DNA of 35,548 bases from Mycoplasmatota bacterium (GCA_022768045.1 JALEND010000029.1:1-35548); one strand, 5' to 3'; positions 625 through 25,807 are shown, counted from the first letter of the stretch. A program made the numbers and translations. Notes: generated from the sequence alone by a model not told the origin.

Positions 625-945
625 ATGAATGATGGAAATTACTTAATACCTGCTAACTCAAAAAGAGGTCAGCTGATATTTAATATATTTAAACCTATTG
701 ATTTATGGATAGCTGGTGTTGGAGCATCGATAACAATTATATTATTTATGATTATTCAACCTGCACAGTTATGGAGTGGAATAATTGTTCTTCTTCCATT
801 CCTTATTTGTGCATTCTTAGTTGTTCCAGTACCTAATTATCATAATATTAGATGTGTTCTTACAAATATATATAAGTTTTATTTTGTTGAAAGACAACAA
901 TTTACATGGAAGGGTTGGTGTGTAAAAGATGAGTACAAAGACTGA
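625..945 (+). CDS. PrgI-family-like T4SS membrane protein
   Basis: 106 aa, two adjacent TM segments after an N-terminal IPANSKRGQLIFNIFKPIDLWIAG segment, immediately upstream of the VirB4-type genes (PrgI/TraC-like position). Confidence 0.7.
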   Translation: MNDGNYLIPANSKRGQLIFNIFKPIDLWIAGVGASITIILFMIIQPAQLWSGIIVLLPFLICAFLVVPVPNYHNIRCVLTNIYKFYFVERQQFTWKGWCVKDEYKD

Positions 946-1459
946 TTTTGATGTACCTGTTAAAGCTATTTTAAATAATTTAATAGAGCTTGATAATGGG
1001 GAAAAGGTTGCTGGTGTTAAAATAATACCTAGAAACATATTTATATTAGAGGAAAATGATCAATTTTCTATACTAAGTAGATTAAAGGATATGTATAATA
1101 CTTTTGATTTTGAGTTTTGGCTTGTTGTAACTGATAGGCCTGTTGATATAGCAGTTCATATAGCACAACTTCAAGCTCAATTTAATCAATCTCAAAGTTC
1201 TTTAGCTAGAAAACTTATTTCTCAGGATTTACAGAAAGCTAATCAATTTATTAATGAGGGTGTTTCTGATGTTGAATTTTATTTCTTGTTTAAAGAAAAG
1301 AATATTGAGATTATTCAAAAGAGAATTAGACTTATGATGAATGGTTTAGCTCAAGCTGGATTGTTCTCTAGTCAAGCTAATAATGATGATTTAAGAGTTA
1401 TTTTAGATAGTTTCTTAAATGCTGGAGAAAAAACTGAGTTTGGGACGGTGATGAGCTAA
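929..1459 (+). CDS. Small protein resembling a VirB4/TrsD-type N-terminal domain
   Basis: 176 aa; ATG overlaps the end of the PrgI-like gene by 17 nt; its TAA overlaps the ATG of VirB4 (TAATG). Order PrgI - small protein - VirB4 resembles the trsC-trsD-trsE/traC-D-E arrangement of Gram-positive conjugation systems. Confidence 0.55.
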   Translation: MSTKTDFDVPVKAILNNLIELDNGEKVAGVKIIPRNIFILEENDQFSILSRLKDMYNTFDFEFWLVVTDRPVDIAVHIAQLQAQFNQSQSSLARKLISQDLQKANQFINEGVSDVEFYFLFKEKNIEIIQKRIRLMMNGLAQAGLFSSQANNDDLRVILDSFLNAGEKTEFGTVMS

Positions 1460-3246
1460 TGAATATTAAAAAAGAATTATGTCCAAAGGGAATTGATTTT
1501 CATCCTTCTGAGTTTGTTGTTAGTGATAAGTGGTGTACTATTTTAACTGTAGTTTCTTATCCTAAATGGATAGGACCAGGTTTTTTATCTAACATAACTA
1601 GTAATTCTGGTGTTAAAGTTGTTGTTAAACATTTACCATTACCTTTTAGTGTTATGTCTAAAATGCTTAATAAACAATTAGCAGAGTTAAAGGAAAATTA
1701 TCAAAAGGAAAATGATAAAACAGCACAGGAACAAATTAGACAGGATTATGATTCATTAAATGAGTTTATTCAAATGATAACAGCTAATCAAGCTAAAATA
1801 TTTGATTTTCAAATGCATATTATAATTTCTGCTAATACTAAAGAAGAACTAGAACAAAAGAAACTACAAATTAAAAACTATTTATCTGCTATGGAATTAA
1901 GGGCAATTCCTCTTAGGTTTGAACAGAAGAAAGTACTTAAGTCTATTCTTCCAATTTATCCTAAACAAGATATAGAAGATCAAATTGGTACTCCAATAAC
2001 TTCTCCAACAGTAGCAGCTATGTATCCATTTATTTTTGATAGTTTAAAGGATCCAGGACTTTCTTGTTTGCTTGGAACTGATTTTTCTGGAGGAGTAGTT
2101 TTATTTAACCAATTTTATTATCAATTACAAGGACAAAGTGATAATTCAAGAAATAATGCCAATATGATTATATTAGGTACATCTGGATCTGGTAAATCAA
2201 CAGCAGCTAAATTATTATTAAGATCTTATGTTAGAAATGATTATAAAGTTGTTGTTATAGACCCAGAAGGTGAATTAGAGGATATGGCAGCTAAGATGCA
2301 AGGTGATTTCATCGATATGGGACGTGGCGGAACTCATGGTATAATAAATCCATTAGAGGTTATTGCTGATACTGATGAAGATGAAGATAGTGAAGGTGTT
2401 TTAGGTAATACTATTCAAACTATTAAAGCATTTATGGCATATTATGATCCAACTATAACAGAGGATGTATTAACATTACTTGGTTCAATGTTAGCACTTA
2501 CTTATGAACGTTTTGGTATGACTGTTGAAACAAACTTTTTTAACATACCAAGGGATAGATTTCCAACATTCTCTGATTTATATGAAACTGTTGTAAGAAG
2601 ACTAGAAGCTTATGGTGATCAAATAACTCGTGAAAGAGATATATTAGAGTCTTTAGAGTTAAAATTAAGACCATTAGTTAATAGAAATGAAATGGGTATA
2701 TATTTTAATGGTCATACAACAATTGATCCAAAGAGTAAGTTTGTAGTATTTAATACTAAGGAATTAATGAATGCATCAGCTAATATAAGAAATGCTTTGT
2801 TCTTTAATATTTTAAAATTTGCATGGAGTCAGTGCTTAGATAGAAATATTAATACTGTTATGATGGTTGATGAGGCACATATATTGTTGTCTGGAAATAA
2901 TACTTTAGGTGCAGACTTTTTATCAAATGTTCAAAGACGTGCTAGAAAATATAACACAGGTACTTTATTTATAACTCAACAACCTAGTGATTTTGCTGAA
3001 CAATCAGTTATTACACAAGGTAAAGCTATATTTGATAATGCTTCATATTACTTAATTATGAACTTAAAGAAACAAGCTGTTGAAGATTTAGGTTTATTAA
3101 TTGATTTAAATGAACAAGAAAAAGAAAGTATTAAAAAATACTCTCAAGGAGAAGCTTTATTTGTTGTTGGTGAAAGAAGAATGAGGGTTGATGTTTTAGT
3201 TACTGAAGCAGAATTAGATTCATTTGGAGATAAGGGTGGATTCTAA
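1459..3246 (+). CDS. virB4: VirB4-family conjugation/T4SS ATPase
   Basis: 595 aa; Walker A LGTSGSGKST, Walker B VMMVDEAHILL, C-terminal RRARKYNTGTLFITQQPSDF motif typical of VirB4/TraE. Confidence 0.92.
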   Translation: MNIKKELCPKGIDFHPSEFVVSDKWCTILTVVSYPKWIGPGFLSNITSNSGVKVVVKHLPLPFSVMSKMLNKQLAELKENYQKENDKTAQEQIRQDYDSLNEFIQMITANQAKIFDFQMHIIISANTKEELEQKKLQIKNYLSAMELRAIPLRFEQKKVLKSILPIYPKQDIEDQIGTPITSPTVAAMYPFIFDSLKDPGLSCLLGTDFSGGVVLFNQFYYQLQGQSDNSRNNANMIILGTSGSGKSTAAKLLLRSYVRNDYKVVVIDPEGELEDMAAKMQGDFIDMGRGGTHGIINPLEVIADTDEDEDSEGVLGNTIQTIKAFMAYYDPTITEDVLTLLGSMLALTYERFGMTVETNFFNIPRDRFPTFSDLYETVVRRLEAYGDQITRERDILESLELKLRPLVNRNEMGIYFNGHTTIDPKSKFVVFNTKELMNASANIRNALFFNILKFAWSQCLDRNINTVMMVDEAHILLSGNNTLGADFLSNVQRRARKYNTGTLFITQQPSDFAEQSVITQGKAIFDNASYYLIMNLKKQAVEDLGLLIDLNEQEKESIKKYSQGEALFVVGERRMRVDVLVTEAELDSFGDKGGF

Positions 3247-4352: not shown

Positions 4353-7300
4353 ATGCCAGTACCATTAGTAATTGCTGCAGGTGTAGCCGCAGCAGGGGGA
4401 GCTGGTGCTGCCGCAGGAGGTGCAGCAGTAGCAGGAACAGCCGCAGCCGCTGGAAGCGCCGCTGCCGCGGGAGGTGCAGCCGCCGCAAGTAGTGCTGCTG
4501 TTGCAGCTGGAAGTACAGCTGCCGCAGGAAGTGCAGCTGCCACAAGTGGTGCAAGTAGTGCTGCCGCAGCAGCTGCTAAAAAAGCATTAAGTGAAGAAGC
4601 AAAGAAAAAATTAAAAGACGAATTTGAAAAAAGAATGAAAGATGAATTAAAAAATAGAATATTAAATAGAGACGGAAATAATAATTCATCTGATGATAAG
4701 GATAATAAGAAAAAAAATGATAATGATAATTATAAAAATCCTAAAAAAGGCGATAATTTAAGTAAAAATGGTAATCCTGATAAAAATGGTAAAGATAATG
4801 ATAAAGGTAGAAATAATAAGTCTTTTAATCCAATGGATAATTTATCATTAAAGGATCCAGAAAAAGTTGCTAAGCAAGCTAAAGACTTAGTTAATGATGC
4901 TTTAAAAAATGCTAAATTAGGTAATATGCCAGATATAAAATTACCTAAGAATCTTGCAAATAAGGCTCTTAATAATAATTTGGGAGCTAAAAGGTTAGGA
5001 AATAATTTAAAAAATGGTCAAAAACCTTTAACTAAAAATAACTTAGGTAAGGGATTAGGTAATAATCTTAGAAACTTAAGAAATAATTTAAAAAACAGAA
5101 TTAATGATAGAAAAGAAAAAGCTAAAAATGCCTTAAAGAAAGGTGAAAAAGCTGTTAAAACAGCTATTGTAATTCATAAATTAAAAAAAGCATTTCCATT
5201 TATATTAGCTGCTGTTGTTCTATTGATAATTGTTAGTATACCTTTTGCAGCATATGGTTATGTGGAGTCTTTATTACCTGGTATTAATGGGGATGTAAAA
5301 GAAGAAAATGTAATAACTGAAGATTATTCAAAACGTGATCAAAAAGTAATTGATAAAATACAAGGCATAGTAAATGATAATCCTAATGCATCTAAAAATT
5401 ATAAAGTAAGTGATACTTCATCTGATGATGATGCTTCAAATTCAGAAGAGTCAGATGACACTACAGAGGATAGCTCAGATACTGGTTATTCAGTAGGTGC
5501 TGTTATAATGTCAGCAGTTGCATATCCATACTATAGTACACTTCAAAGTGATAATATAAAACTTTATTATTCAGACGCTGAGGAAACTGACGATGAGGAT
5601 GGTGATGATATAACTGATTCATCAGATATTTCTATTAAGTTTGAAGATGATGAAGATTCATCGTCTTCTGATAGTGAAGATGACGATGAAAATGAAGCTG
5701 AAAATGATATTTACTTAAACTTATTTTCAAAAAGAAAATATCGTAAGAAATTCAAAAAATTAATGAAGGTTTATAACGATGATGGACAAGAAGAGTTTGA
5801 AAAATATTTTAAAGAAAAATATATAAAGTCTGATAAAGGTTATAAACAGCTTCTTAAAAAAATGGATGATTTAGATGATGATGAAAAAGATGATGTATAT
5901 AATGAATTACTTAATGATGTAATAGAAAATGGTGATTTATTTGAACCTTATATTCCTGAAGCAAAGTGTTCATCATCTTCTAATGAAACAGAAATTGGAA
6001 CTGCATCTGATGAGGAAAGTGATACAGAAAATTTAGCTGATTCATCATCTGGTGCTGGAACATATTCCTCAATAATTAAAGGTACACCTTATGTAAATGT
6101 AAAAGATAGTTCATCTGGAAATATAAGTGATATAAAAAGTGCTTCTTCCTTATATGGAACTGATTCAAATCCTATGGCATTATCAAGATATGTAATGGGC
6201 GTTGTTTATGCAGAAATAGGCTCTACAAATGAGTCAGCTGTAAAATCTCAAATGATAGCAGCTCAATCATTCTTACTTGGTAGAACGCAAGCTTCTGCAT
6301 GTAAAGATGGATGTGTTGGTATGGGATTTACTCCTGATTATCAAGATGGAAAAACAATTATATACATAAGAGGAAATACAAACGATCAAGCATTTTGTGA
6401 TATATATGAAGGATGTAAATCAGGTACATATGCTAATTCTCCAACTTCAAAAGGTGCAATGTCAAAAGAAAATATTGCTAATTTTGAAAAATGGTATAGT
6501 GAGATAGCAACTTACTTTGTATATGATTCTAAAAACAATGTATTTACAGCGGCTTATAAAAAGAATTATGAGCAATCAGGTTGTAAAAAGGGAATATGTA
6601 TGTCACAAGATGATATATTATCTTCTTCAAATAAAGAGTCTGATTTTAAAAACTTATTATTTGATTCAAGTAAGGGTGGTTATGATAGTAGTAGATTCGT
6701 TTTATATAAAAGTGATGATGATTCTTTAAGTGCGATAACAACTAGTGAAACAGTTGCTTGTCCATCTAATAATTGTGGTGTATCTGGTACTCGTGATGAA
6801 ATCGTTACATTTGCAAGAAGTATGGTAGGAAAGATATCTTACTACTTTGGAGGAAAACCATCTGGTCCAAACTATGAAGATAATAATTTTGGAACAACAG
6901 TTAAGGCAGATCATAAAGGTAGAGATAAAAGAGGACTTGATTGTTCTGGATTTGTTGATTTTGTATTCTGGCATGTAACAGGTGAAAACTTTGGACTTGG
7001 AAACACATCAGAAATAAGAGATCAGTATTCAACAGAAATTTCTTATGATGATTTAAAACCTGGTGATATAGGATTCTTAGATAAATCAGGTTCTGGTACT
7101 AATCAACACGTTGGTATATATGTTGGTAAAGATTCATCTGGTAAGGATATATGGATTGATTGTAATGCTTCAAATGGTGTTCAAGAACATAATACTGGTG
7201 AATTCAAAGTATATTATAGACCTAAAATTTTAGATGGCACTGATGATAGTAATACTAATACTTGTGAGTCTAGTACAGGTGCATTTTCTTGTAAAACTTA

Positions 7301-8357
7301 TAATTTATCATCATCAGAATTAAATGGTTTAGCTTCAATAGCGTATGCAGAGCAAGGTTCTGTAGAAGGGGCAAAAGCAGAGGCTTCTTTAATGGCTAAT
7401 AGATATGAGTTAGATAATTCTTCTAGATCTTTATATGACTATGTTTATGATGGTGGAAAGAAAAACTGGTGGTCAGCATCCTCAAAGACAGATGTCAATA
7501 AAGCGCCTAAAAAAGAAGTTGTAGATGGTGTAAAAGATGTATTAGTAAATGGTAATAGATCATTTCCTTCATATGTAAATGAACATGACTGTATTTCTTG
7601 TGGTAGCTCTGGATTCGACATTATTAAACTAGATGTTGGTGGTAAGGTATATACAAGTTCTAAAGATTTATTAAATCATAATAATTATATTCAACATAAA
7701 ACAGTAATATATAATAAGTATAGTAGTAAATATACTTTCTATTCATTTCCTACAAAAGGTAGCGATCCATTTGGTTATACTAAGAAAACAAAAGATACTT
7801 GTAGTGCTTCTTCAGGTGTTCAAGGGGATGGATTATCAAAAGGAACTTTGGTTCATCCATTAAAATCAAAGGGTAGTTGGGCTCAGTCTGCAAGTGCAGC
7901 AGAAAATTTAAGATATAATAGTGGTTCTTATCATGGTGGTAATGATATTTCTGTAGCTAAAGGAACTTCTGTTGTAGCTATGGATGGTGGTGTTGTTATA
8001 AAAGCTGATACAACTACTAATAAAGGAAAAGATGTTAAAAGTGAAGGATATGGTCACTTTGGTAAATTTATTCTGTTAGAACATACGATATCAGGAAAAA
8101 AATATTATACAGTATATGCACATTTAAATAGTATATCCGTTAAAGTAGGAGATAAGGTATCTCAAGGACAAGTTATAGGTAAATCTGGAAATACAGGTAA
8201 TTCAACAGGACCTCACTTACATATTGCAATGTCTTATAATAAATATACTAATGGAGGAGCTCCTATATATAATAAAAATGTTATATCACCTTATAAATAT
8301 ATTACAGGATCTAAAAAAGGAAAATCATATGTGGGTGACAAAGGAAAAAATTATTAG
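4353..8357 (+). CDS. Large membrane-anchored multi-domain cell-wall hydrolase (Ala/Gly-rich N-terminus, TM, SpoIID-like, NlpC/P60, SleB-like, M23 peptidase)
   Basis: 1334 aa; TM FPFILAAVVLLIIVSIPFAAYGYV; SpoIID-like NPMALSRYVMGVVYAEIG...KSQMIAAQSFLLGRTQ; NlpC/P60 LDCSGFVDFVFW...NQHVGIYVG; SleB-like LNGLASIAYAEQGSVEGAKAEASLMANRYE; M23 YHGGND (HxxxD) and GPHLHIAMS (HxH). SD AAGGAAGTGATTTTATG. Confidence 0.85.
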   Translation: MPVPLVIAAGVAAAGGAGAAAGGAAVAGTAAAAGSAAAAGGAAAASSAAVAAGSTAAAGSAAATSGASSAAAAAAKKALSEEAKKKLKDEFEKRMKDELKNRILNRDGNNNSSDDKDNKKKNDNDNYKNPKKGDNLSKNGNPDKNGKDNDKGRNNKSFNPMDNLSLKDPEKVAKQAKDLVNDALKNAKLGNMPDIKLPKNLANKALNNNLGAKRLGNNLKNGQKPLTKNNLGKGLGNNLRNLRNNLKNRINDRKEKAKNALKKGEKAVKTAIVIHKLKKAFPFILAAVVLLIIVSIPFAAYGYVESLLPGINGDVKEENVITEDYSKRDQKVIDKIQGIVNDNPNASKNYKVSDTSSDDDASNSEESDDTTEDSSDTGYSVGAVIMSAVAYPYYSTLQSDNIKLYYSDAEETDDEDGDDITDSSDISIKFEDDEDSSSSDSEDDDENEAENDIYLNLFSKRKYRKKFKKLMKVYNDDGQEEFEKYFKEKYIKSDKGYKQLLKKMDDLDDDEKDDVYNELLNDVIENGDLFEPYIPEAKCSSSSNETEIGTASDEESDTENLADSSSGAGTYSSIIKGTPYVNVKDSSSGNISDIKSASSLYGTDSNPMALSRYVMGVVYAEIGSTNESAVKSQMIAAQSFLLGRTQASACKDGCVGMGFTPDYQDGKTIIYIRGNTNDQAFCDIYEGCKSGTYANSPTSKGAMSKENIANFEKWYSEIATYFVYDSKNNVFTAAYKKNYEQSGCKKGICMSQDDILSSSNKESDFKNLLFDSSKGGYDSSRFVLYKSDDDSLSAITTSETVACPSNNCGVSGTRDEIVTFARSMVGKISYYFGGKPSGPNYEDNNFGTTVKADHKGRDKRGLDCSGFVDFVFWHVTGENFGLGNTSEIRDQYSTEISYDDLKPGDIGFLDKSGSGTNQHVGIYVGKDSSGKDIWIDCNASNGVQEHNTGEFKVYYRPKILDGTDDSNTNTCESSTGAFSCKTYNLSSSELNGLASIAYAEQGSVEGAKAEASLMANRYELDNSSRSLYDYVYDGGKKNWWSASSKTDVNKAPKKEVVDGVKDVLVNGNRSFPSYVNEHDCISCGSSGFDIIKLDVGGKVYTSSKDLLNHNNYIQHKTVIYNKYSSKYTFYSFPTKGSDPFGYTKKTKDTCSASSGVQGDGLSKGTLVHPLKSKGSWAQSASAAENLRYNSGSYHGGNDISVAKGTSVVAMDGGVVIKADTTTNKGKDVKSEGYGHFGKFILLEHTISGKKYYTVYAHLNSISVKVGDKVSQGQVIGKSGNTGNSTGPHLHIAMSYNKYTNGGAPIYNKNVISPYKYITGSKKGKSYVGDKGKNY

Positions 8358-8367
8358 GAGGATTAAT

Positions 8368-9045
8368 ATGAATAACGTTAAAAAGATAATTATATTAATT
8401 ATTGGATTAGTAATTTTATCTGGTTGTAGTGTAAAAAGTGAAGTAAGTATTAATTCTAATAATAGTGTAGAAGAAAAGGTATATATAACAGAAAATATAA
8501 AAAAAATAAATACCAAGGGTACGGTTGATTCATATGTTAATGAATTAATCGACCTTTATGGTATAAGTTACAAAGATAAAAAGATAAATAAGAGTAAAAA
8601 TACTGTGACAGTTATATTAACTAATAAATATGATGATATATGTAAATATTTAGATAACTCATTCTTTGCAAATTATGTAACTGGTAATAAAAATTGTTCA
8701 AAGGAAAAAGATAAGTTTGTTATATCATCAAATGTATCAAATAAAGTTTGTGAAGATTGTTTAGAAAACGTAGAAACTTTTAAAATAAATTATAACTTAA
8801 ATAAAAAAAATATATTAACAAGTAATGGTATTGATACAGGAGAAAATTATAATTGGAAGATTGATGTTGGTGATGAAAAAAACATTAACTTTGAAGTGGA
8901 TAAAAAGTTTTCTATAACATATTTATTAAAAGGAATAAATAATACTGTTAAAATAACAATTTTATTTATAGTGATTTTAGTATTAGTAGCATTATTTATT
9001 AATTTTAGTTATAAGAGATTTAAGAAAAATAAAATAGATTATTAG
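8368..9045 (+). CDS. Lipoprotein with C-terminal TM helix, paralogue 1
   Basis: The track ORF starts at 8224, but the SD TAGGAGG (8355-8361) positions ATG 8368: MNNVKKIIILIIGLVILSGCS with lipobox LSGC; C-terminal TM TVKITILFIVILVLVALFINF plus basic tail. Confidence 0.85.
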   Translation: MNNVKKIIILIIGLVILSGCSVKSEVSINSNNSVEEKVYITENIKKINTKGTVDSYVNELIDLYGISYKDKKINKSKNTVTVILTNKYDDICKYLDNSFFANYVTGNKNCSKEKDKFVISSNVSNKVCEDCLENVETFKINYNLNKKNILTSNGIDTGENYNWKIDVGDEKNINFEVDKKFSITYLLKGINNTVKITILFIVILVLVALFINFSYKRFKKNKIDY

Positions 9046-9054
9046 GAGGATATA

Positions 9055-9798
9055 ATGACTAAGATAAGAAAAGTATTATTATTTATTATTTGTATTATAC
9101 TTTTTACAGGATGTACAGCAACAGAGAAAGTATCTTTAACAGATGATGGTAAAATAAAGGAAAATGTATCTGTTATGGAGAAAAATGCTGATGTATTATA
9201 TGGTAGTAGTACATTAGAAGAATCTATTGAACAATATTTATCTGAATATGAAGATGCTCTAAGAGTTAGGAAGTATAGCTACGACATAAAAATAAAAGAT
9301 GAGGAAAGTGGAGCTGTTTTAACTAATACATATGATGATATGTGTTCATTTATTAGAAAAACTTCATTTAGTCAGTATCTATATAAAAAATTTAATTGTG
9401 CTTTTAAAGATGGTTATTATGTTGTAGAAAGTAGTGGTGAATTTCTTAGAAAGGATTCTTTTGAAGAACCATGGAAGGTTCCTGATAAAATTATTTTAAA
9501 AATTGATTTAGGTGTTAACTTAGAAGAAAATAATGCAGATAGTGTTAATAAAACTACTTATACATGGAATTTTGATACTGATACACCTTCTTCTAAAGAA
9601 ATTAAATTTAAGGTTAATAAAAGTAAATTAGATGGTGAAAAAGAAAGAAGAATAAAGGAAAAGCAAGAGGCTAAAACAAAGAAAAAAATAATTAATGCAT
9701 TTATTTTAATTTTTGTTATAATTATTTTAGCAGTTGTTTCTTACTTCGTATATAAAGTTTTAAAGAAAAAATATGAAAATAATAAAATAGATTATTAA
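9055..9798 (+). CDS. Lipoprotein with C-terminal TM helix, paralogue 2
   Basis: 247 aa; MTKIRKVLLFIICIILFTGCT lipobox FTGC; shares LTN-YDD-C, NC and the C-terminal NKIDY with the preceding gene; C-terminal TM. Confidence 0.85.
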   Translation: MTKIRKVLLFIICIILFTGCTATEKVSLTDDGKIKENVSVMEKNADVLYGSSTLEESIEQYLSEYEDALRVRKYSYDIKIKDEESGAVLTNTYDDMCSFIRKTSFSQYLYKKFNCAFKDGYYVVESSGEFLRKDSFEEPWKVPDKIILKIDLGVNLEENNADSVNKTTYTWNFDTDTPSSKEIKFKVNKSKLDGEKERRIKEKQEAKTKKKIINAFILIFVIIILAVVSYFVYKVLKKKYENNKIDY

Positions 9799-9872: not shown

Positions 9873-12317
9873 ATGAAATTAAAATTTAGGGCAGAAAAAA
9901 AGGATGTTGTAGCTTTTATATGGGCATGCGTACTTCTTTTATTAATAGTTTCGATTTGTGTTTATAATCTTAAAGATGTAACAAATGAAGCTGAGGTAGC
10001 TAGAAGAACTGGAGTATCTTTAAATCCTATTTCTGGTTTAATACCTCCTTATCTTGGTTATACAATTGTTTTTTGGTTAGTTTCAATAATTATTTTAACT
10101 GCCAGTGTTTCATCTCATTTCTTTGAAAGAGAAAAAGGTTTTGGTTTTATTGAAGGAAAAAAAGAAGATGGATTTGGTAGATTTGCCAAAGAAGATGAAT
10201 ACAAAAAATATAAAGATGTTGAACCTGTTGAACTTAATGCAAAAGAGGCAACCACAGCAGGTTTTCCACTTGTTTATGATAAAAAGAAAAACTTAGTTTA
10301 TGTAGATAATGGTGAAGCACACTCTCTTGTAATAGGTGCTACTGGTTCTGGTAAAACTCAAATGGTTATTAATCCATTAGTTAATATTTTAGCTAAAAAG
10401 GGTGAGTCAATGATTATTTCTGACCCTAAAGGTGAAATATATGAAAAAAATGGTGAAATGTTAAGAGAGTTAGGTTATGACGTTATAGTTGTTAACTTTC
10501 GTGATCCTCAAAATGGTAGTTGTTGGAATCCATATACGCTTCCTTATAAATATTATAAAGAAGGTAATCAAGATAAAGCTAATGAGCTTTTAAATGATAT
10601 GGCTATTAACATAGCAACTGATGAAAAAGCAGATGATCCATTCTGGACAAATTCTGCAGCTGATTATTTAACTGGTTTATCACTTGGTATGTTTGAAGAT
10701 GCTCCTGAAGATGAAATTAGTATTTCAACTGTAAACTTAATGATGACAGTTGGAGATGAAAAAGTTGGTTCATCTACTTATATAAAAGAGTATTTTAAAA
10801 TGAAGGATCCAACTAGTCCTGCAGCTATTAATGCACTTGGAACAATAAATGCTCCTCAAGAAACAAAAAACTCTATAGATTCAGTTTTAAAGCAAAAGAT
10901 AAAGGTATTTGCTGTTACTCAAAACTTAGCTGAAATGTTATCTAGAAGTGATTTTGACATGGAAACAATAGGTGAAAGAAAAACAGCGGTATTCATGATT
11001 ATACAAGATGAAAAAACAACGTATCATGCACTTGCTACAATCTTTGTAAAACAATGTTATGAATCATTAATTGCGGTAGCACAAAGACATGGTGGGAAGC
11101 TTCCTGTTAGAACAAACTTCTTATTAGATGAGTTTGCTAATATGCCTAAGTTTAAAGATATTACTACTATGATTACAGCAGCTCGTTCAAGACAAATTAG
11201 AATGACTATGATAATTCAAAACTTCGCACAATTAAAACAAGTTTATGGTAATGAAGATGCAGAAACAATTCGTGGTAACTGTGGTAACATTTTGTATTTA
11301 TTAACAGGTGAGTTATCGGCACTAGAAGAAATAAGTAAATTATGTGGTGATAAAATAGTAAAAGTAGGTAAAGATAAAAAAGAAGAAACAAGGCCTTTAA
11401 TTACTGTTACAGAACTTCAAAGATTTAAACAAGATGAAGTACTTGTTTTAAAACATCGTCTTCCACCACTTAGAACTAAGTTCCTACCATTTTGGAATAC
11501 TGATTTTGGATATGGTAAAAATAATGCTGATGTTCCACCAGCAGAAATAATATCTCATGAACAAAGAAAAATAAAATTATTTGACATAAGAGAATTTGTT
11601 AATAGAAAAAAAGAAGAAAAGAGAAAAGAATTATTCTCAAATCAACCTAATAATTCAAATCAATTTAATCCATATGGTGGAGGTTCTAATCCTTTTGGAA
11701 TGCAACAAAATCCATTTGGCACGCCACCTTCTGGAAGTAATCCTTTTCCATCACCAATGGGACAAAATTCGTTTAATCCAGGAGTTCTAAATAATTCTTC
11801 TAGCAGTATTGGAAGCAATGATGAATCATTGAATATAGATGATTTAATCAAGAAAATTGATTCTAAAATTGCTGAGCTAGAGGAAGAAGAGAAGAAGGAT
11901 AACGAAGCTAAAGATAATGAAGAAGTTGCTTCTTCTAAAAAATTAGTAGAAGATATTATGAATGATAATAATATCAAAGAAGATAATAATATTCATTCAT
12001 CTGATGTTATTATGTCTCCAAATAAAATAGATTTTTCATCATTTGAATTGCCTGAAGAGAAAAAATCTGATAATAATGAGATTAAGCCAGATATAATGGA
12101 TGACTTCTTAGAAGATTTATCAATAGATGATAATGAAGATGATACGGTAATTAATACTTCTAATACTATTAATAATAATGAAGAAAATAAAGATGTTACA
12201 AACGTAGTAAATGAAGCTAAAGAACAAAAAGATGATTTATATGTAAATAAAGAAGAAGTAGATAAAATAATGAAAGAAAAAGAACCAGATGATTTCTTTG
12301 ATGAATTCTTTGAATAA
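9873..12317 (+). CDS. virD4: VirD4/TraG-family type IV coupling protein with acidic Asn/Asp/Glu-rich C-terminal tail
   Basis: 814 aa; two N-terminal TMs; Walker A IGATGSGKTQ, SDPKGEIYE, FLLDEFANMPKFKD, TMIIQNFAQL motifs of VirD4/TraG. Confidence 0.92.
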   Translation: MKLKFRAEKKDVVAFIWACVLLLLIVSICVYNLKDVTNEAEVARRTGVSLNPISGLIPPYLGYTIVFWLVSIIILTASVSSHFFEREKGFGFIEGKKEDGFGRFAKEDEYKKYKDVEPVELNAKEATTAGFPLVYDKKKNLVYVDNGEAHSLVIGATGSGKTQMVINPLVNILAKKGESMIISDPKGEIYEKNGEMLRELGYDVIVVNFRDPQNGSCWNPYTLPYKYYKEGNQDKANELLNDMAINIATDEKADDPFWTNSAADYLTGLSLGMFEDAPEDEISISTVNLMMTVGDEKVGSSTYIKEYFKMKDPTSPAAINALGTINAPQETKNSIDSVLKQKIKVFAVTQNLAEMLSRSDFDMETIGERKTAVFMIIQDEKTTYHALATIFVKQCYESLIAVAQRHGGKLPVRTNFLLDEFANMPKFKDITTMITAARSRQIRMTMIIQNFAQLKQVYGNEDAETIRGNCGNILYLLTGELSALEEISKLCGDKIVKVGKDKKEETRPLITVTELQRFKQDEVLVLKHRLPPLRTKFLPFWNTDFGYGKNNADVPPAEIISHEQRKIKLFDIREFVNRKKEEKRKELFSNQPNNSNQFNPYGGGSNPFGMQQNPFGTPPSGSNPFPSPMGQNSFNPGVLNNSSSSIGSNDESLNIDDLIKKIDSKIAELEEEEKKDNEAKDNEEVASSKKLVEDIMNDNNIKEDNNIHSSDVIMSPNKIDFSSFELPEEKKSDNNEIKPDIMDDFLEDLSIDDNEDDTVINTSNTINNNEENKDVTNVVNEAKEQKDDLYVNKEEVDKIMKEKEPDDFFDEFFE

Positions 12318-12361: not shown

Positions 12362-12634
12362 ATGATAGTTTCATTTGATGAAATAGATAAAAATTGTAAA
12401 ATAATTGATATAAGAGATAATATAAGTTTTAGTGAATATAACATAAAAAATAGTTTAAATGTTCCAAAAATAAAATTATTATCTGATCCAAGTTTATATA
12501 TTAATAAGGATGAGATTGTTTACATAGTATGTGATGAGGGAAAGAGTAGTAAGAGTACTGCTAATATTTTAAATAAATTAGGTTATAAATGCTATAGCAT
12601 AGAAGGTGGAATTGATAGTATAAAGAAACAATAA
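12362..12634 (+). CDS. Rhodanese-like domain protein
   Basis: 90 aa; IIDIRDNISFSEYNIKNSLNVP ... VYIVCDEGKSSKSTANILNKLGYKCYSIEGGID matches rhodanese fold motifs, with active-site Cys in VCDEGKSS. Confidence 0.85.
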   Translation: MIVSFDEIDKNCKIIDIRDNISFSEYNIKNSLNVPKIKLLSDPSLYINKDEIVYIVCDEGKSSKSTANILNKLGYKCYSIEGGIDSIKKQ

Positions 12635-12648
12635 AGTTTCTTTTTTTT
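12622..12648 (+). terminator. Rho-independent terminator
   Basis: AAAGAAAC-aataaa-GTTTCTTTTTTTT overlapping the end of the rhodanese gene. Confidence 0.75.
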
Positions 12649-12716
12649 GACAATAAAATTTATCATTTCATTTTAAATTTATGATATACTTATATATAGA
12701 ATAAGGAGGTAATAAG

Positions 12717-13796
12717 ATGGAATATATTATAATAGGATTACTTATATTACTTATTATATTAGTTATATTTTCAATATCTAAAAATATTAACGAAAGTAAT
12801 ATAACGGAAAGATTAGGAAAGTTAGAAACTAGTATGATTAAAGAGTTAGGGGAATTTAAATCAGGTGTTAGTACTAATTTAAATAATGATTTTGAAAAAC
12901 TTAATGATAGAATAGAACATAAATTAAATATGATAAATGATCATGTAAATGAAAGATTAGATGTTAACTTTGAAAAAACAAATAAGACTTTTACATCTGT
13001 GTTAGAAAGATTATCTAAAATAGATGAGGCTCAAAAAAAGATAGATACTTTATCAACAGATATAGTATCACTTCAGTCTATTTTAACTGATAAGAAATCT
13101 CGTGGTATATTTGGTGAAGTTAATTTAAAACATATATTAGTTAGTGTTTTTGGAGAAAATAATGATAACATATATAAAATGCAATATACTTTTAACAATG
13201 GTTATATAGCAGATTGTGTTTTATTTGCACCAGAACCTCTTGGTACAATAGCAATTGATTCTAAATTTCCACTAGATAACTACAGATTAATGATAGATAA
13301 AAAAGCTGGTTTAATAGAAAGACAAAACGCTGAGAAAAACTTTAAATCAGATGTAAAAAAACATATTGATGCAATTGCTAATAAATACATAATAAAGGGA
13401 GTAACAAGTAATCAAGCTATTATGTTTTTACCTGCAGAAGCAATATTTGCAGAGCTTAATGCATATCATTCTGATATAATAGAATATGCTTATAAAAAGA
13501 GGGTTTGGATAACATCTCCAACTACTTTAATGAGTACATTAACTACTATTGAACTTGTTATAAAAAATATAGAAAAAGATAAATATACAAATATTATTCA
13601 TGAGGAATTAAATAAATTATCAGTAGACTTTAAGCGTTATAAAGAAAGATGGGATAAATTATCTAGAAGTATAGATGCTGTAAGTCGTGATGCAAATGAT
13701 ATACATATTACAACAGATAAAATATCAAAAAGATTTGATGCAATAAATAATGTTGATACTTCAGTATTAACTGATAATAAAAAACTTGACAAGTAA
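12717..13796 (+). CDS. rmuC: RmuC family DNA recombination protein
   Basis: 359 aa; N-terminal TM, coiled coil, then KSRGIFGEVNLKHIL...GYIADCVLFAPEPLGTIAIDSKFPLDNYRLM, typical of RmuC. Confidence 0.9.
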   Translation: MEYIIIGLLILLIILVIFSISKNINESNITERLGKLETSMIKELGEFKSGVSTNLNNDFEKLNDRIEHKLNMINDHVNERLDVNFEKTNKTFTSVLERLSKIDEAQKKIDTLSTDIVSLQSILTDKKSRGIFGEVNLKHILVSVFGENNDNIYKMQYTFNNGYIADCVLFAPEPLGTIAIDSKFPLDNYRLMIDKKAGLIERQNAEKNFKSDVKKHIDAIANKYIIKGVTSNQAIMFLPAEAIFAELNAYHSDIIEYAYKKRVWITSPTTLMSTLTTIELVIKNIEKDKYTNIIHEELNKLSVDFKRYKERWDKLSRSIDAVSRDANDIHITTDKISKRFDAINNVDTSVLTDNKKLDK

Positions 13797-22222: not shown

Positions 22223-25200
22223 ATGAATTTTTATTTTAAAAAAGAAGAAGAAAAACTTAAAGTAGGACGACCAAAACTTGCAGACACTAAGCAAAAGAAA
22301 AATGCACTTATTTTAAGTGTATCATCAATAATGGTAGCAATATGTTTAGTGTTTGGTGGACTATTTGATTTAAATATAATAAATACAGATAAGTTAAAAG
22401 GATCTATTTTTGGGACAACTATAACAGGTTCTAAAGTTTACAAAGGCGTTTTAATAAGTGTTCCTAAAAAAGTACTTTTAGGTGATCCGGAAGGTTCAGA
22501 GCAGTATAAGGGTGCTACTATATATGATAAAAATAATTTTAATGTAACTATTAATAATACCACTGATAAAGAGATGACTGATGTAACTTATTCTCTTAGT
22601 GGAACAGGTGATTTAACAGGTGCCGATGGTGGAACTACTAATATTCAAAGTAATGGATTCCCTGCATCAGTAGCAGCTAATACTAAAGTAGAAACTAAGT
22701 TCTATGGTGGAGTAAAAGATGCTTATGATTATAAAGATGTACAAGAACAGTTGATTATAAGCTATAAGGTAGATGGTGAAAGCTTTAATGAAATATATGA
22801 TATAAACTTTTATCATGCAATTTATGGTAATGATTATTTAAAGAGCTTACCTCTAGTTGATTCTGAAGAAAGTACTGGAGAGTATGCTTATTCTGGAAAT
22901 GAAAGTGAGACTTTTTACTATAAATCTAATAGAAGTAAAGTATTTATGGATAAAAGAGAAGACTTATATGATATGAATGTTAATTTTTCATATAAAACGA
23001 TATTTTCAAATATTGTAATAATATTAGCACCACAAGCTGCTAGATCTGTTGCAATGAGTGCAGATGGTGATGCTAAGTTATCTGATTATATTAATTTTGG
23101 TAGTTCAGATAATGGTCATACTTATAAAGTAAAAAGTGCAACTGACTATGAAACTTTTGATAACCCATCGCACAGATTATGGGGAAGTGTAAAACAGACA
23201 ACAAATGGAACTGTTCCAATTAAACTTCCAGTTTATGCAGAATATTCTAAGAAAAAATGGACTGGTTCTTATGAATATCAATATGCTACTAGTGATACAA
23301 CAAAATTTACTAGAACAAAAGATGTAACTATTGATCTTACTATTTATGATAAATCTATATTAGAGAAAAAATTAGTTGAAGCATCAGCTAAAATAGATAA
23401 GTATGATGATGATTATTACAAAGTAGATACTTATAATAATTATATTAATGCAGCAAAAGAAGTTTATAAAACAAGAAATACAACTCAAGCTAAAATAGAT
23501 GAAGCAATTAAAAATCTTGATACTGTAATAAATGCTACGCCAGAAGAAAAAGAAGCTGATTATACAAAGTATAATGAAATAATAAGTAAGATTGTTTCAC
23601 TAGATAGTGAGTTTTATAAAGATAATGAAGAATATAAAAAATTAATTGAAGAATATAATAATAGAAATAATTATAATAATTTTAAGAAAAGTAACCAATC
23701 TACGCTAGATACATATGTTAGTACATTAACTTCAATTTATAATAACATACCAGGTAATTATACAGAAGTTGATTTTGCTATTGATAGAGCTAATAAGATA
23801 AGTAATGAAATAGAGGTAGCAGGAGTTAAATATAATAGATATACAGATGAGTCTTATAAAGCTTTAACAGATGCTGTTGCAAATGTTGTAACTGGTAAAA
23901 AGGTTAAAGATCAAAGTGAAATAGATTCGTATGCAGAAAACATTAATAATGCTATTAAAAATTTAAAAGATCATGCAGCAGATTATGCAAAAGTAGATGA
24001 AGCAATTAATGCTGTACCTAAAAATGAAATAGAAGTAGATGGAATTAAGTATAAAAGATATACAGATGAATCTTATAAAGTATTAACTGATTTAATAAGT
24101 AGTATAGAAGAAAGTAAAAAGACAAAGACTGTATTAGATCAAGAAGAAGTAAATGGCTATGTTAATAATATTGAAAATGCTATAAATGGTTTAAAAGATC
24201 ATGCAGCAGATTATGCAAAAGTAGATGAAGCAATTAATGCTGTACCTAAAAATGAGATAGAAGTATCAGGCGTTAAATATAAAAGATATACAGAAGACTC
24301 TTATAAGAAGGTAACAGATTTAGTTGCAAGTGTAGTAAGAGATAAAAAGGTAACAGAGCAAGCTGCAGTTAATAAATATGCAACTGATATTAAAAATGCT
24401 ATAAATGCTTTAAAAGATCATGCAGCATATTATACAAAAGTAGATGAAAAAATTAAATCAGTACCAAAAAATGAGATAGAAGTATCTGGTACTAAATATA
24501 AAAGATATACAGATGAATCTTATAAAGTATTAACTGATTTAATTACAAAGATACAAAATGAGGAAAAAAATAGCCCGAAAACAGTATTAGAGCAAGAAAA
24601 AGTAAATAAATATATTACAGAAATAGATAATGCTATAAATGGTTTAAAAGATCATGCAGCTGATTATACAAAAGTAGATGAAGCAATTAATAAAGCTAAG
24701 GAGAAACTTGGCGATAAATTAGTTAATGAAATAGAAATAGATGGCGTTAAGTATGAAAGATATACATCTGATTCTTATAAAGCTGTAATAGATGCAATAA
24801 ATAGTGTTGTTAAAGGTAAATTAGTTACAGAGCAAGAAATTGTTAATAAGTATGCAGCAGATATTAATAACGCAGTTAAAAACTTAAAAGATCATGCAGC
24901 TGATTATACAAAAGTAGATGAAGCAATTAGTGCTGTACCTAAAAATGAAATTGAGATAAACGAAGTAAAATATCAAAAATACACAACAGCCTCTTATAAA
25001 GAGTTAACTGATTTAATTGATAATATTGATAGAAATAAAACTATATTAGAACAAGAAGAGGTAAATAATTATATAACTTTAATATCTAAGAAAGAAAAAG
25101 AATTAGAGTTATGTAAAGCAGATTATAGTAAATTAAAAAATATAACTTCATTAATACCTTATGACTTTTCTATATATAATTTAGAGTCAGTTGAAAAGTT

Positions 25201-25807
25201 AAATACTTTATTAGATAAAATAAAGAACTTAGATTCAGAACTTAAGATAACTAGTCAAGATAAGCTTGATAGTTTAATAAAAGAAATAGATGAAGTATTA
25301 AGTAGTTTGAAATTAAAAGATACTAGTGTTACTACTAAGTATGATAATAAATATGATGCTAATTATAAGCCGGATAAAAAGGTTATAAAGAAGAATAATA
25401 AAGTATCAAAAAGTCATATTGTTAGTATAACAGTAAATGGAAAAGAGCTTGATTTAAATAGCGCTAGTATAACTGTTGAAAATGATGTATCAAAAGCAGA
25501 TATAAAAGTAGAACTATCAAATTCAAGTGATAAGTATGAAATATATGGTGGTAATATACTTATCGTTGGCGATAATACAATTACTGTTTATGTTTATAAT
25601 GATAGCGACAGCTATGAATATAAATTTAATATAAAAAGAGAAGATGAAGAATTAACTAGTGTAAAAAAGAAAACTAAAACTACAATTAATAATATTATAA
25701 AATATAAAACAAATTCTAAATTGATAATATCAGCTTCTATTTTAGGAGTATTAATAATTGGAACAGTTTGTTATCTTATAATTAAGAAGAAAAATAGTGA
25801 GAAATAA
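22223..25807 (+). CDS. Large surface/envelope repeat protein with N-terminal VGRPKLAD motif + TM, FIVAR-like repeats, cadherin-like beta-sandwich domain and C-terminal TM
   Basis: 1194 aa; EKLKVGRPKLADTKQKKNALILSVSSIMVAICLVFGGLF; about six repeats of DHAADYxKVDEAINxVPKNEIEVxGxKYxRYTxxSYK...; C-terminal SITVNGKELDLNSASITV...GDNTITVYVYNDSDSYEYKFNIKRE and TM LIISASILGVLIIGTVCYLIIKKK. Confidence 0.85.
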   Translation: MNFYFKKEEEKLKVGRPKLADTKQKKNALILSVSSIMVAICLVFGGLFDLNIINTDKLKGSIFGTTITGSKVYKGVLISVPKKVLLGDPEGSEQYKGATIYDKNNFNVTINNTTDKEMTDVTYSLSGTGDLTGADGGTTNIQSNGFPASVAANTKVETKFYGGVKDAYDYKDVQEQLIISYKVDGESFNEIYDINFYHAIYGNDYLKSLPLVDSEESTGEYAYSGNESETFYYKSNRSKVFMDKREDLYDMNVNFSYKTIFSNIVIILAPQAARSVAMSADGDAKLSDYINFGSSDNGHTYKVKSATDYETFDNPSHRLWGSVKQTTNGTVPIKLPVYAEYSKKKWTGSYEYQYATSDTTKFTRTKDVTIDLTIYDKSILEKKLVEASAKIDKYDDDYYKVDTYNNYINAAKEVYKTRNTTQAKIDEAIKNLDTVINATPEEKEADYTKYNEIISKIVSLDSEFYKDNEEYKKLIEEYNNRNNYNNFKKSNQSTLDTYVSTLTSIYNNIPGNYTEVDFAIDRANKISNEIEVAGVKYNRYTDESYKALTDAVANVVTGKKVKDQSEIDSYAENINNAIKNLKDHAADYAKVDEAINAVPKNEIEVDGIKYKRYTDESYKVLTDLISSIEESKKTKTVLDQEEVNGYVNNIENAINGLKDHAADYAKVDEAINAVPKNEIEVSGVKYKRYTEDSYKKVTDLVASVVRDKKVTEQAAVNKYATDIKNAINALKDHAAYYTKVDEKIKSVPKNEIEVSGTKYKRYTDESYKVLTDLITKIQNEEKNSPKTVLEQEKVNKYITEIDNAINGLKDHAADYTKVDEAINKAKEKLGDKLVNEIEIDGVKYERYTSDSYKAVIDAINSVVKGKLVTEQEIVNKYAADINNAVKNLKDHAADYTKVDEAISAVPKNEIEINEVKYQKYTTASYKELTDLIDNIDRNKTILEQEEVNNYITLISKKEKELELCKADYSKLKNITSLIPYDFSIYNLESVEKLNTLLDKIKNLDSELKITSQDKLDSLIKEIDEVLSSLKLKDTSVTTKYDNKYDANYKPDKKVIKKNNKVSKSHIVSITVNGKELDLNSASITVENDVSKADIKVELSNSSDKYEIYGGNILIVGDNTITVYVYNDSDSYEYKFNIKREDEELTSVKKKTKTTINNIIKYKTNSKLIISASILGVLIIGTVCYLIIKKKNSEK
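23755..25110 (+). repeat. In-frame tandem repeats (about 65-80 codons each) within the surface protein
   Basis: Six recognisable units; units 2 and 3 are near-identical at DNA level over gatcatgcagcagattatgcaaaagtagatgaagcaattaatgctgtacctaaaaatga (starts at 23969 and 24197, 228 bp apart). Confidence 0.85.

Follow-up and report, generated by a model that had tools for sequence, protein, structure and literature searches.

A predicted membrane-anchored wall hydrolase with four peptidoglycan-active folds in a type IV secretion locus of order RF39

The gene at positions 4353–8357 of a 35,548-nucleotide stretch of DNA from a Mycoplasmatota bacterium (GCA_022768045.1 JALEND010000029.1:1-35548, hereafter the window) raises the question of whether one anchored protein can combine four different peptidoglycan (PG)-active domains inside a type IV secretion system (T4SS) locus, and what such a protein would do there. 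The original prediction, made from the sequence alone, saw in it an unusual all-in-one wall-opening module. We infer that the window genome belongs to Candidatus Aphodocola, which has been placed in order RF39 (PMC8035907). All window genes and domains with a designated strand below are on the + strand.

A four-domain protein between virB4 and virD4

The open reading frame (ORF) encodes 1334 amino acids without an internal stop, and long homologous ORFs occupy the same place in the sampled congeneric genomes. A chance ORF or an assembly fusion was considered and rejected, as the same domain order is found in two independent assemblies, G007 and G008. The N-terminal region (4353–5177), Ala/Gly-rich in residues 1–76 and Lys/Asn-rich in residues 77–275, is predicted from its charge to be cytoplasmic. 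It is followed by a single transmembrane (TM) helix at about residues 276–302 (5178–5258), the one hydrophobic segment in the protein, and by an acidic linker and conserved membrane-proximal region, residues 303–590 (5259–6122), that can be aligned in most congeners. The 16 cysteines are confined to the predicted extracellular part, the cytoplasmic part having none, and the topology is most simply read as N-in. After the helix, the sequence reads as SpoIID-like, NlpC/P60, SleB-like and M23 domains, and the expected candidate catalytic residues are present in each; the motifs and the domain order are those of the original prediction.

Profile searches place two of the domains above the curated Pfam cut-offs. 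The NlpC/P60 domain, residues 825–956 (6825–7220), matches PF00877 over residues 855–941 (E=1.1e-9) and has the Cys/His pair C864 (6942–6944) and H919 (7107–7109). The M23 (LytM) domain, residues 1193–1292 (7929–8228), matches PF01551 over residues 1193–1297 (E=1.4e-23) and contains the metal residues H1194 and D1198 of the HxxxD motif and H1288 and H1290 of the HxH motif, together with H1257. The SpoIID-like domain, residues 606–690 (6168–6422), is sub-threshold for PF08486 (E=0.004, 18.2 bits vs a 23-bit cut-off). The call is upheld because the SpoIID domains of several relatives at the same locus exceed the Pfam cut-off (e.g. 4.7e-11 and 8.6e-10), and because a profile built from 11 SpoIID-like domains of same-locus homologues matches solved SpoIID at 1.7e-10. 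Its invariant Glu, E621 (6213–6215), falls by hand count in the alignment column of E101, the catalytic residue of Clostridioides difficile SpoIID (PMC6221140). The Cys pair C140/C146, which binds zinc in that enzyme, may have its counterpart in the invariant DQxxCx5C motif; the parallel is one of spacing, the two cysteines being six residues apart in both proteins (C682/C688 in the window). Among the congeners, the NlpC domain of G012 (L042) lacks the catalytic Cys (GLGSVGF) and the Cys motif was not found in that of G015 (L045); both versions are probably non-enzymatic. Given the loss of the Cys in G012, the function of this domain need not be enzymatic throughout.

At the start of the window lies the C-terminal part of a VirB6-like protein that is cut by the contig end (2–607). 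No direct sequence match was found for this ORF, which is assigned by its position, where congeners have a multi-TM ORF of 810–946 amino acids. Next to it lies a PrgI/VirB3-like membrane protein (625–945), recognised by a weak PrgI match (E=0.011) and its conserved position. VirB4 is encoded by two coupled genes at 929–3246, one for an N-terminal part of about 180 amino acids (929–1459) and one for a C-terminal ATPase part of about 595 amino acids with the Walker A motif GTSGSGKS (1459–3246). Both in the window and in its relatives, the hydrolase gene lies between this split virB4 and virD4. It is followed by a lipoprotein with a C-terminal TM helix and, on sequence inspection, the lipobox SGC (8368–9045), by a second lipoprotein with a C-terminal TM helix that is conserved beside the hydrolase (9055–9798), and by the VirD4 coupling ATPase of the CD1115 family (9873–12317; NF045973 above cut-off). 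Genes for a rhodanese and RmuC (12362–13796) form a chromosomal flank that is conserved beside the T4SS, and housekeeping genes make up the downstream flank (RmuC, ScpA/ScpB, Band 7 and a Mur ligase). At 22223–25807 is a 1194-residue ORF whose only matches, to Amidase_2 and FIVAR, are weak, both being below the cut-off. With its gene inside a virB4/virD4 locus, a predicted membrane anchor and at least one PG-hydrolase domain on the predicted extracellular side, the protein has the features of a VirB1-type wall hydrolase (4353–8357). The expectation of four distinct PG-active folds on one anchored chain in a T4SS locus is borne out, with the catalytic signatures intact.

A predicted SleB-fold domain of an unnamed family shared with gut phages

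The segment between NlpC/P60 and M23, residues 964–1147 (7242–7793), is the one predicted domain that profiles do not support. It has no Pfam match to PF07486 (SleB/Hydrolase_2), no relevant match among PDB sequences with phmmer or hmmsearch and none by hhalign to the resident SleB/CwlJ-like proteins of the genome, and its family matches neither Pfam nor PHROG. These results would suit a domain that is unrelated to SleB and binds the wall or has a structural role, as would the Foldseek E-values against the PDB, which are all above 0.1. We nevertheless consider such an unrelated domain very improbable. Two AlphaFold models of the segment have pLDDT values of 85.6 and 87.0, and the SleB structures 4fet and 4f55 take ranks 1–3 in the PDB for these models. 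For the deeper model, the SleB matches have a probability of 0.98–0.99, E-values of 0.11–0.18 and TM-scores of 0.60–0.66 normalised to SleB, and the next unrelated match has a probability of 0.15. SleB crystal structures are thus the sole credible PDB matches to the predicted fold. Matches in a viral structure library are also mostly SleB-type hydrolases, the best with E=1.1e-4. The candidate catalytic Glu, E1000 (7350–7352), placed in the predicted fold by sequence inspection rather than by superposition, occurs in 99% of 67 homologous domains, a set to which phage proteins contribute. On the strength of the modelled structure, we treat the segment as a SleB-fold enzyme and not as a PF07486 member. 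The SleB-like call thus stands at the level of the predicted fold, but by sequence the domain is not a recognisable spore-cortex hydrolase.

The family is found in 18 of 288 RF39 genomes, two of these as weak matches through stop codons, in one of 392 sampled Bacillota genomes (the window genome alone) and in 54 viral-contig loci. On the viral contigs (L187–L239), the domain is N-terminal in gut-phage endolysin-like ORFs that also contain PG_binding_1 and, in many cases, CHAP or ELLD, and some copies are embedded in very large ORFs. In three phage ORFs (L192, L227 and L189) it is the sole candidate catalytic domain, the others being PG-binding domains, which also speaks against a structural or binding role unrelated to SleB. 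As the SleB-fold cassette is common to gut-phage endolysin-like proteins, some cassettes of the T4SS hydrolases are probably phage-derived. A search for the whole architecture on plasmids and named phages gave no place covering 80% of the query, the best matches being to one or two domains. Six further loci (L173–L178) have SleB-like ORFs of 331–383 amino acids with N-terminal hydrophobic segments, in a layout that is VirB2/pilin-like by eye; on one of these stretches (L178), VirB6 and PrgI homologues are also present.

Cassette shuffling in a T4SS kept across RF39

Domain series in relatives were assigned with local domain profiles seeded with Pfam-assigned regions. The exact order SpoIID-NlpC-SleB-M23 beside virB4 and virD4 is found in 3 of 18 Candidatus Aphodocola genomes (the window, G007 and G008), and a permuted version, SleB-SpoIID-C39-CHAP, in a fourth (G001). 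The commonest series is SpoIID-C39-M23 (ten proteins), and there are many other sets, including ones with phage-lysozyme. Congeners retain the N-terminal half, the TM helix, the membrane-proximal region and SpoIID; the rest is swapped, added or permuted, the variable cassettes being NlpC, C39-like, CHAP, M23 and SleB-fold domains, with phage-lysozyme in other genera. The four-domain order is not a fixed module but a single result among several that domain shuffling has produced. Domains of the same kinds are, in other genera, split between a pair of adjacent genes in the T4SS locus, for example SleB-like plus M23 beside SpoIID plus C39 in L184, which suggests that the domains work together.

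Median identity within the genus is 32% for the hydrolase, a value that partly reflects alignment of non-homologous cassettes, and 36% for the adjacent lipoprotein, compared to 87% for the C-terminal VirB4 part, 77% for VirD4 and 86% for RmuC. Between the window and G007, identity is 76% in the NlpC and SleB-like domains and 32% in M23, and the window M23 is most similar (72%) to a domain encoded by another, unrelated gene of G007; this combination therefore indicates cassette exchange. The gene in question (L048:444–1754) encodes a 437-residue protein with a prepilin-like N-terminus. Taken together, the sequence comparisons present the hydrolase as a fast-evolving modular subunit of a chromosomal T4SS.

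The secretion system itself is widespread. The gene for the N-terminal part of VirB4, used as a T4SS marker, is present in 259 of 290 RF39 genomes with a completeness of at least 90%, nearly always in one copy. VirB4 is split in all 96 RF39 locus entries, which include some contigs fetched twice, and fused in none, and the stop and start codons of the two genes mostly overlap. Beyond the family, the marker is matched in seven genomes of the class; six of the matches are weak, and several of these genomes have fused VirB4 frames of 785–882 amino acids. No relaxase of the MOBP, MOBQ, MOBV or MOBT classes was recognised in the T4SS loci sampled. A search of the 18 congeners for these four classes gave matches to MOBP (PF03432) in 3 genomes, to MOBQ (MobA_MobL) in none, to MOBV (Mob_Pre) in 10 and to MOBT (Rep_trans) in 1, and none of the matches listed shares a contig with a T4SS locus. 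One MOBV relaxase homologue lies elsewhere in the window genome (G000:C68:459–1124), in a frame with one TAA. Judged by presence, copy number and synteny, the T4SS of RF39 resembles a chromosomal system passed on vertically more than it does a mobile element. A literature keyword search combining RF39 with VirB4 or type IV secretion returned nothing relevant.

Proposed function and known systems

We regard it as highly probable that the protein is the VirB1-type PG hydrolase of a chromosomal Gram-positive-type T4SS in Candidatus Aphodocola, in which the cassette array opens a local hole in the wall. One TM helix would anchor it beside the channel. From what is known of the domain families, the SpoIID-like and SleB-fold domains would cut glycan strands and the NlpC/P60 and M23 domains stem peptides. 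From the domain families and the position beside virB4 and virD4, the resulting hole would let the channel be assembled and substrates pass. An analogue for such local wall opening is provided by the anchored VirB1 proteins of Gram-positive T4SSs (PMC12857230). C. difficile SpoIID requires glycan that has first been stripped by an amidase (PMC6221140); the window protein has no amidase domain, which counts against this reading.

The cassettes need not all be active. In PrgK of pCF10, LytM lacks the metal, and LytM and CHAP downregulate the muramidase, the sole active domain of the three (PMC11323569); an all-in-one activity, as originally envisaged, therefore cannot be assumed. A partly vestigial array like that of PrgK, with a single catalytic domain (e.g. 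SpoIID or M23) and binding or regulatory roles for the rest, is a serious possibility, although we give it somewhat less than an even chance. The degenerate NlpC of G012 fits such an array, but the window copy has every expected catalytic residue, and the near-invariance of E1000, which extends to phage proteins, also argues against it. An array directed chiefly at the wall of a recipient or neighbouring cell, which it would bind or cut, with shuffling as adaptation to changing targets, seems to us unlikely. It would account for the hydrolase and the adjacent lipoprotein being far more diverged in the genus than VirB4, VirD4 and RmuC, for the cassette held in common with phage lysins and for NlpC domains without Cys, and inactive VirB1 homologues have been proposed as adhesins (PMC12857230). 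The window protein, however, has the catalytic residues of all four domains and is membrane-anchored, as are known self-wall hydrolases, and rapid divergence could also come from relaxed spacing or from changes in the cell's own wall. We thus favour local opening of the cell's own wall as the main role.

More tentatively, and with clearly less confidence than in the wall-opening role, we suggest that the RF39 T4SS, being single-copy, vertically inherited, with split VirB4 and no recognised linked relaxase, is a standard machine of the cell. Its hydrolase would then be made of lysin cassettes that reassort fast, are in part common to phages and are tuned to the cell's own wall or to that of target cells in the exchange of DNA or protein among reduced-genome gut bacteria. 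Known T4SS wall hydrolases have two or three domains; the results extend this range to a chain with four different cutter folds, and one genus shows the assembly of such hydrolases by cassette exchange. A T4SS retained across an uncultured, genome-reduced gut order and an unnamed SleB-fold lysin domain common to gut phages and a secretion machine are arguably of greater interest than the number of domains.

No T4SS hydrolase that contains SpoIID or has as many as four domains is documented in the small literature sample of PMC11323569 and PMC12857230; SpoIID and SleB are absent from the text of the former and SpoIID from that of the latter, and a keyword search for SpoIID or SleB in T4SS papers returned nothing relevant. 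TraG of pIP501 (ALPHA class) and Orf14 of Tn916 (BETA class) have two domains (SLT and CHAP in TraG) and a short or no intracellular domain (PMC12857230). Like the window protein, they combine a glycan cutter and a cysteine peptidase, membrane-anchored, in a Gram-positive T4SS locus, but they lack SpoIID, SleB and M23. The SpoIID-like domain has the core motif with the catalytic Glu of C. difficile SpoIID (solved chains 4rwr, 5i1t and 5txu), but the match is short and the spacing to the Cys pair differs; it is fused to peptidases, whereas C. difficile SpoIID is paired with the SpoIIP amidase. The SleB-like domain resembles SleB of Bacillus anthracis (4fet) and Bacillus cereus (4f55) in predicted fold and, on sequence inspection, in the placement of the candidate catalytic Glu. 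It differs in its additional C-terminal strands and its conserved EHD and DPFGYT motifs, shows no significant match to SleB in sequence and, unlike SleB, belongs to a family found both in phage lysin-like ORFs and in proteins of T4SSs. The closest known system is PrgK of pCF10 from Enterococcus faecalis, a VirB1 protein of the DELTA class with an intracellular N-terminus, one TM helix and three extracellular domains, LytM-muramidase-CHAP (PMC11323569), so that the original notion of T4SS hydrolases as two-domain proteins needs correction. The window protein has the DELTA-class layout, with a predicted intracellular N-terminal region, a TM helix and more than two extracellular domains, but not the DELTA-class composition of LytM, SLT/muramidase and CHAP, as it contains neither SLT nor CHAP. 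Both proteins carry several PG-active domains including M23/LytM and unite a glycan cutter with peptidase-type domains on one chain. PrgK belongs to a conjugative plasmid and has a degenerate LytM, whereas the window protein has SpoIID, NlpC, SleB-fold and M23 domains with intact signatures, belongs to a chromosomal T4SS and is shuffled among relatives.
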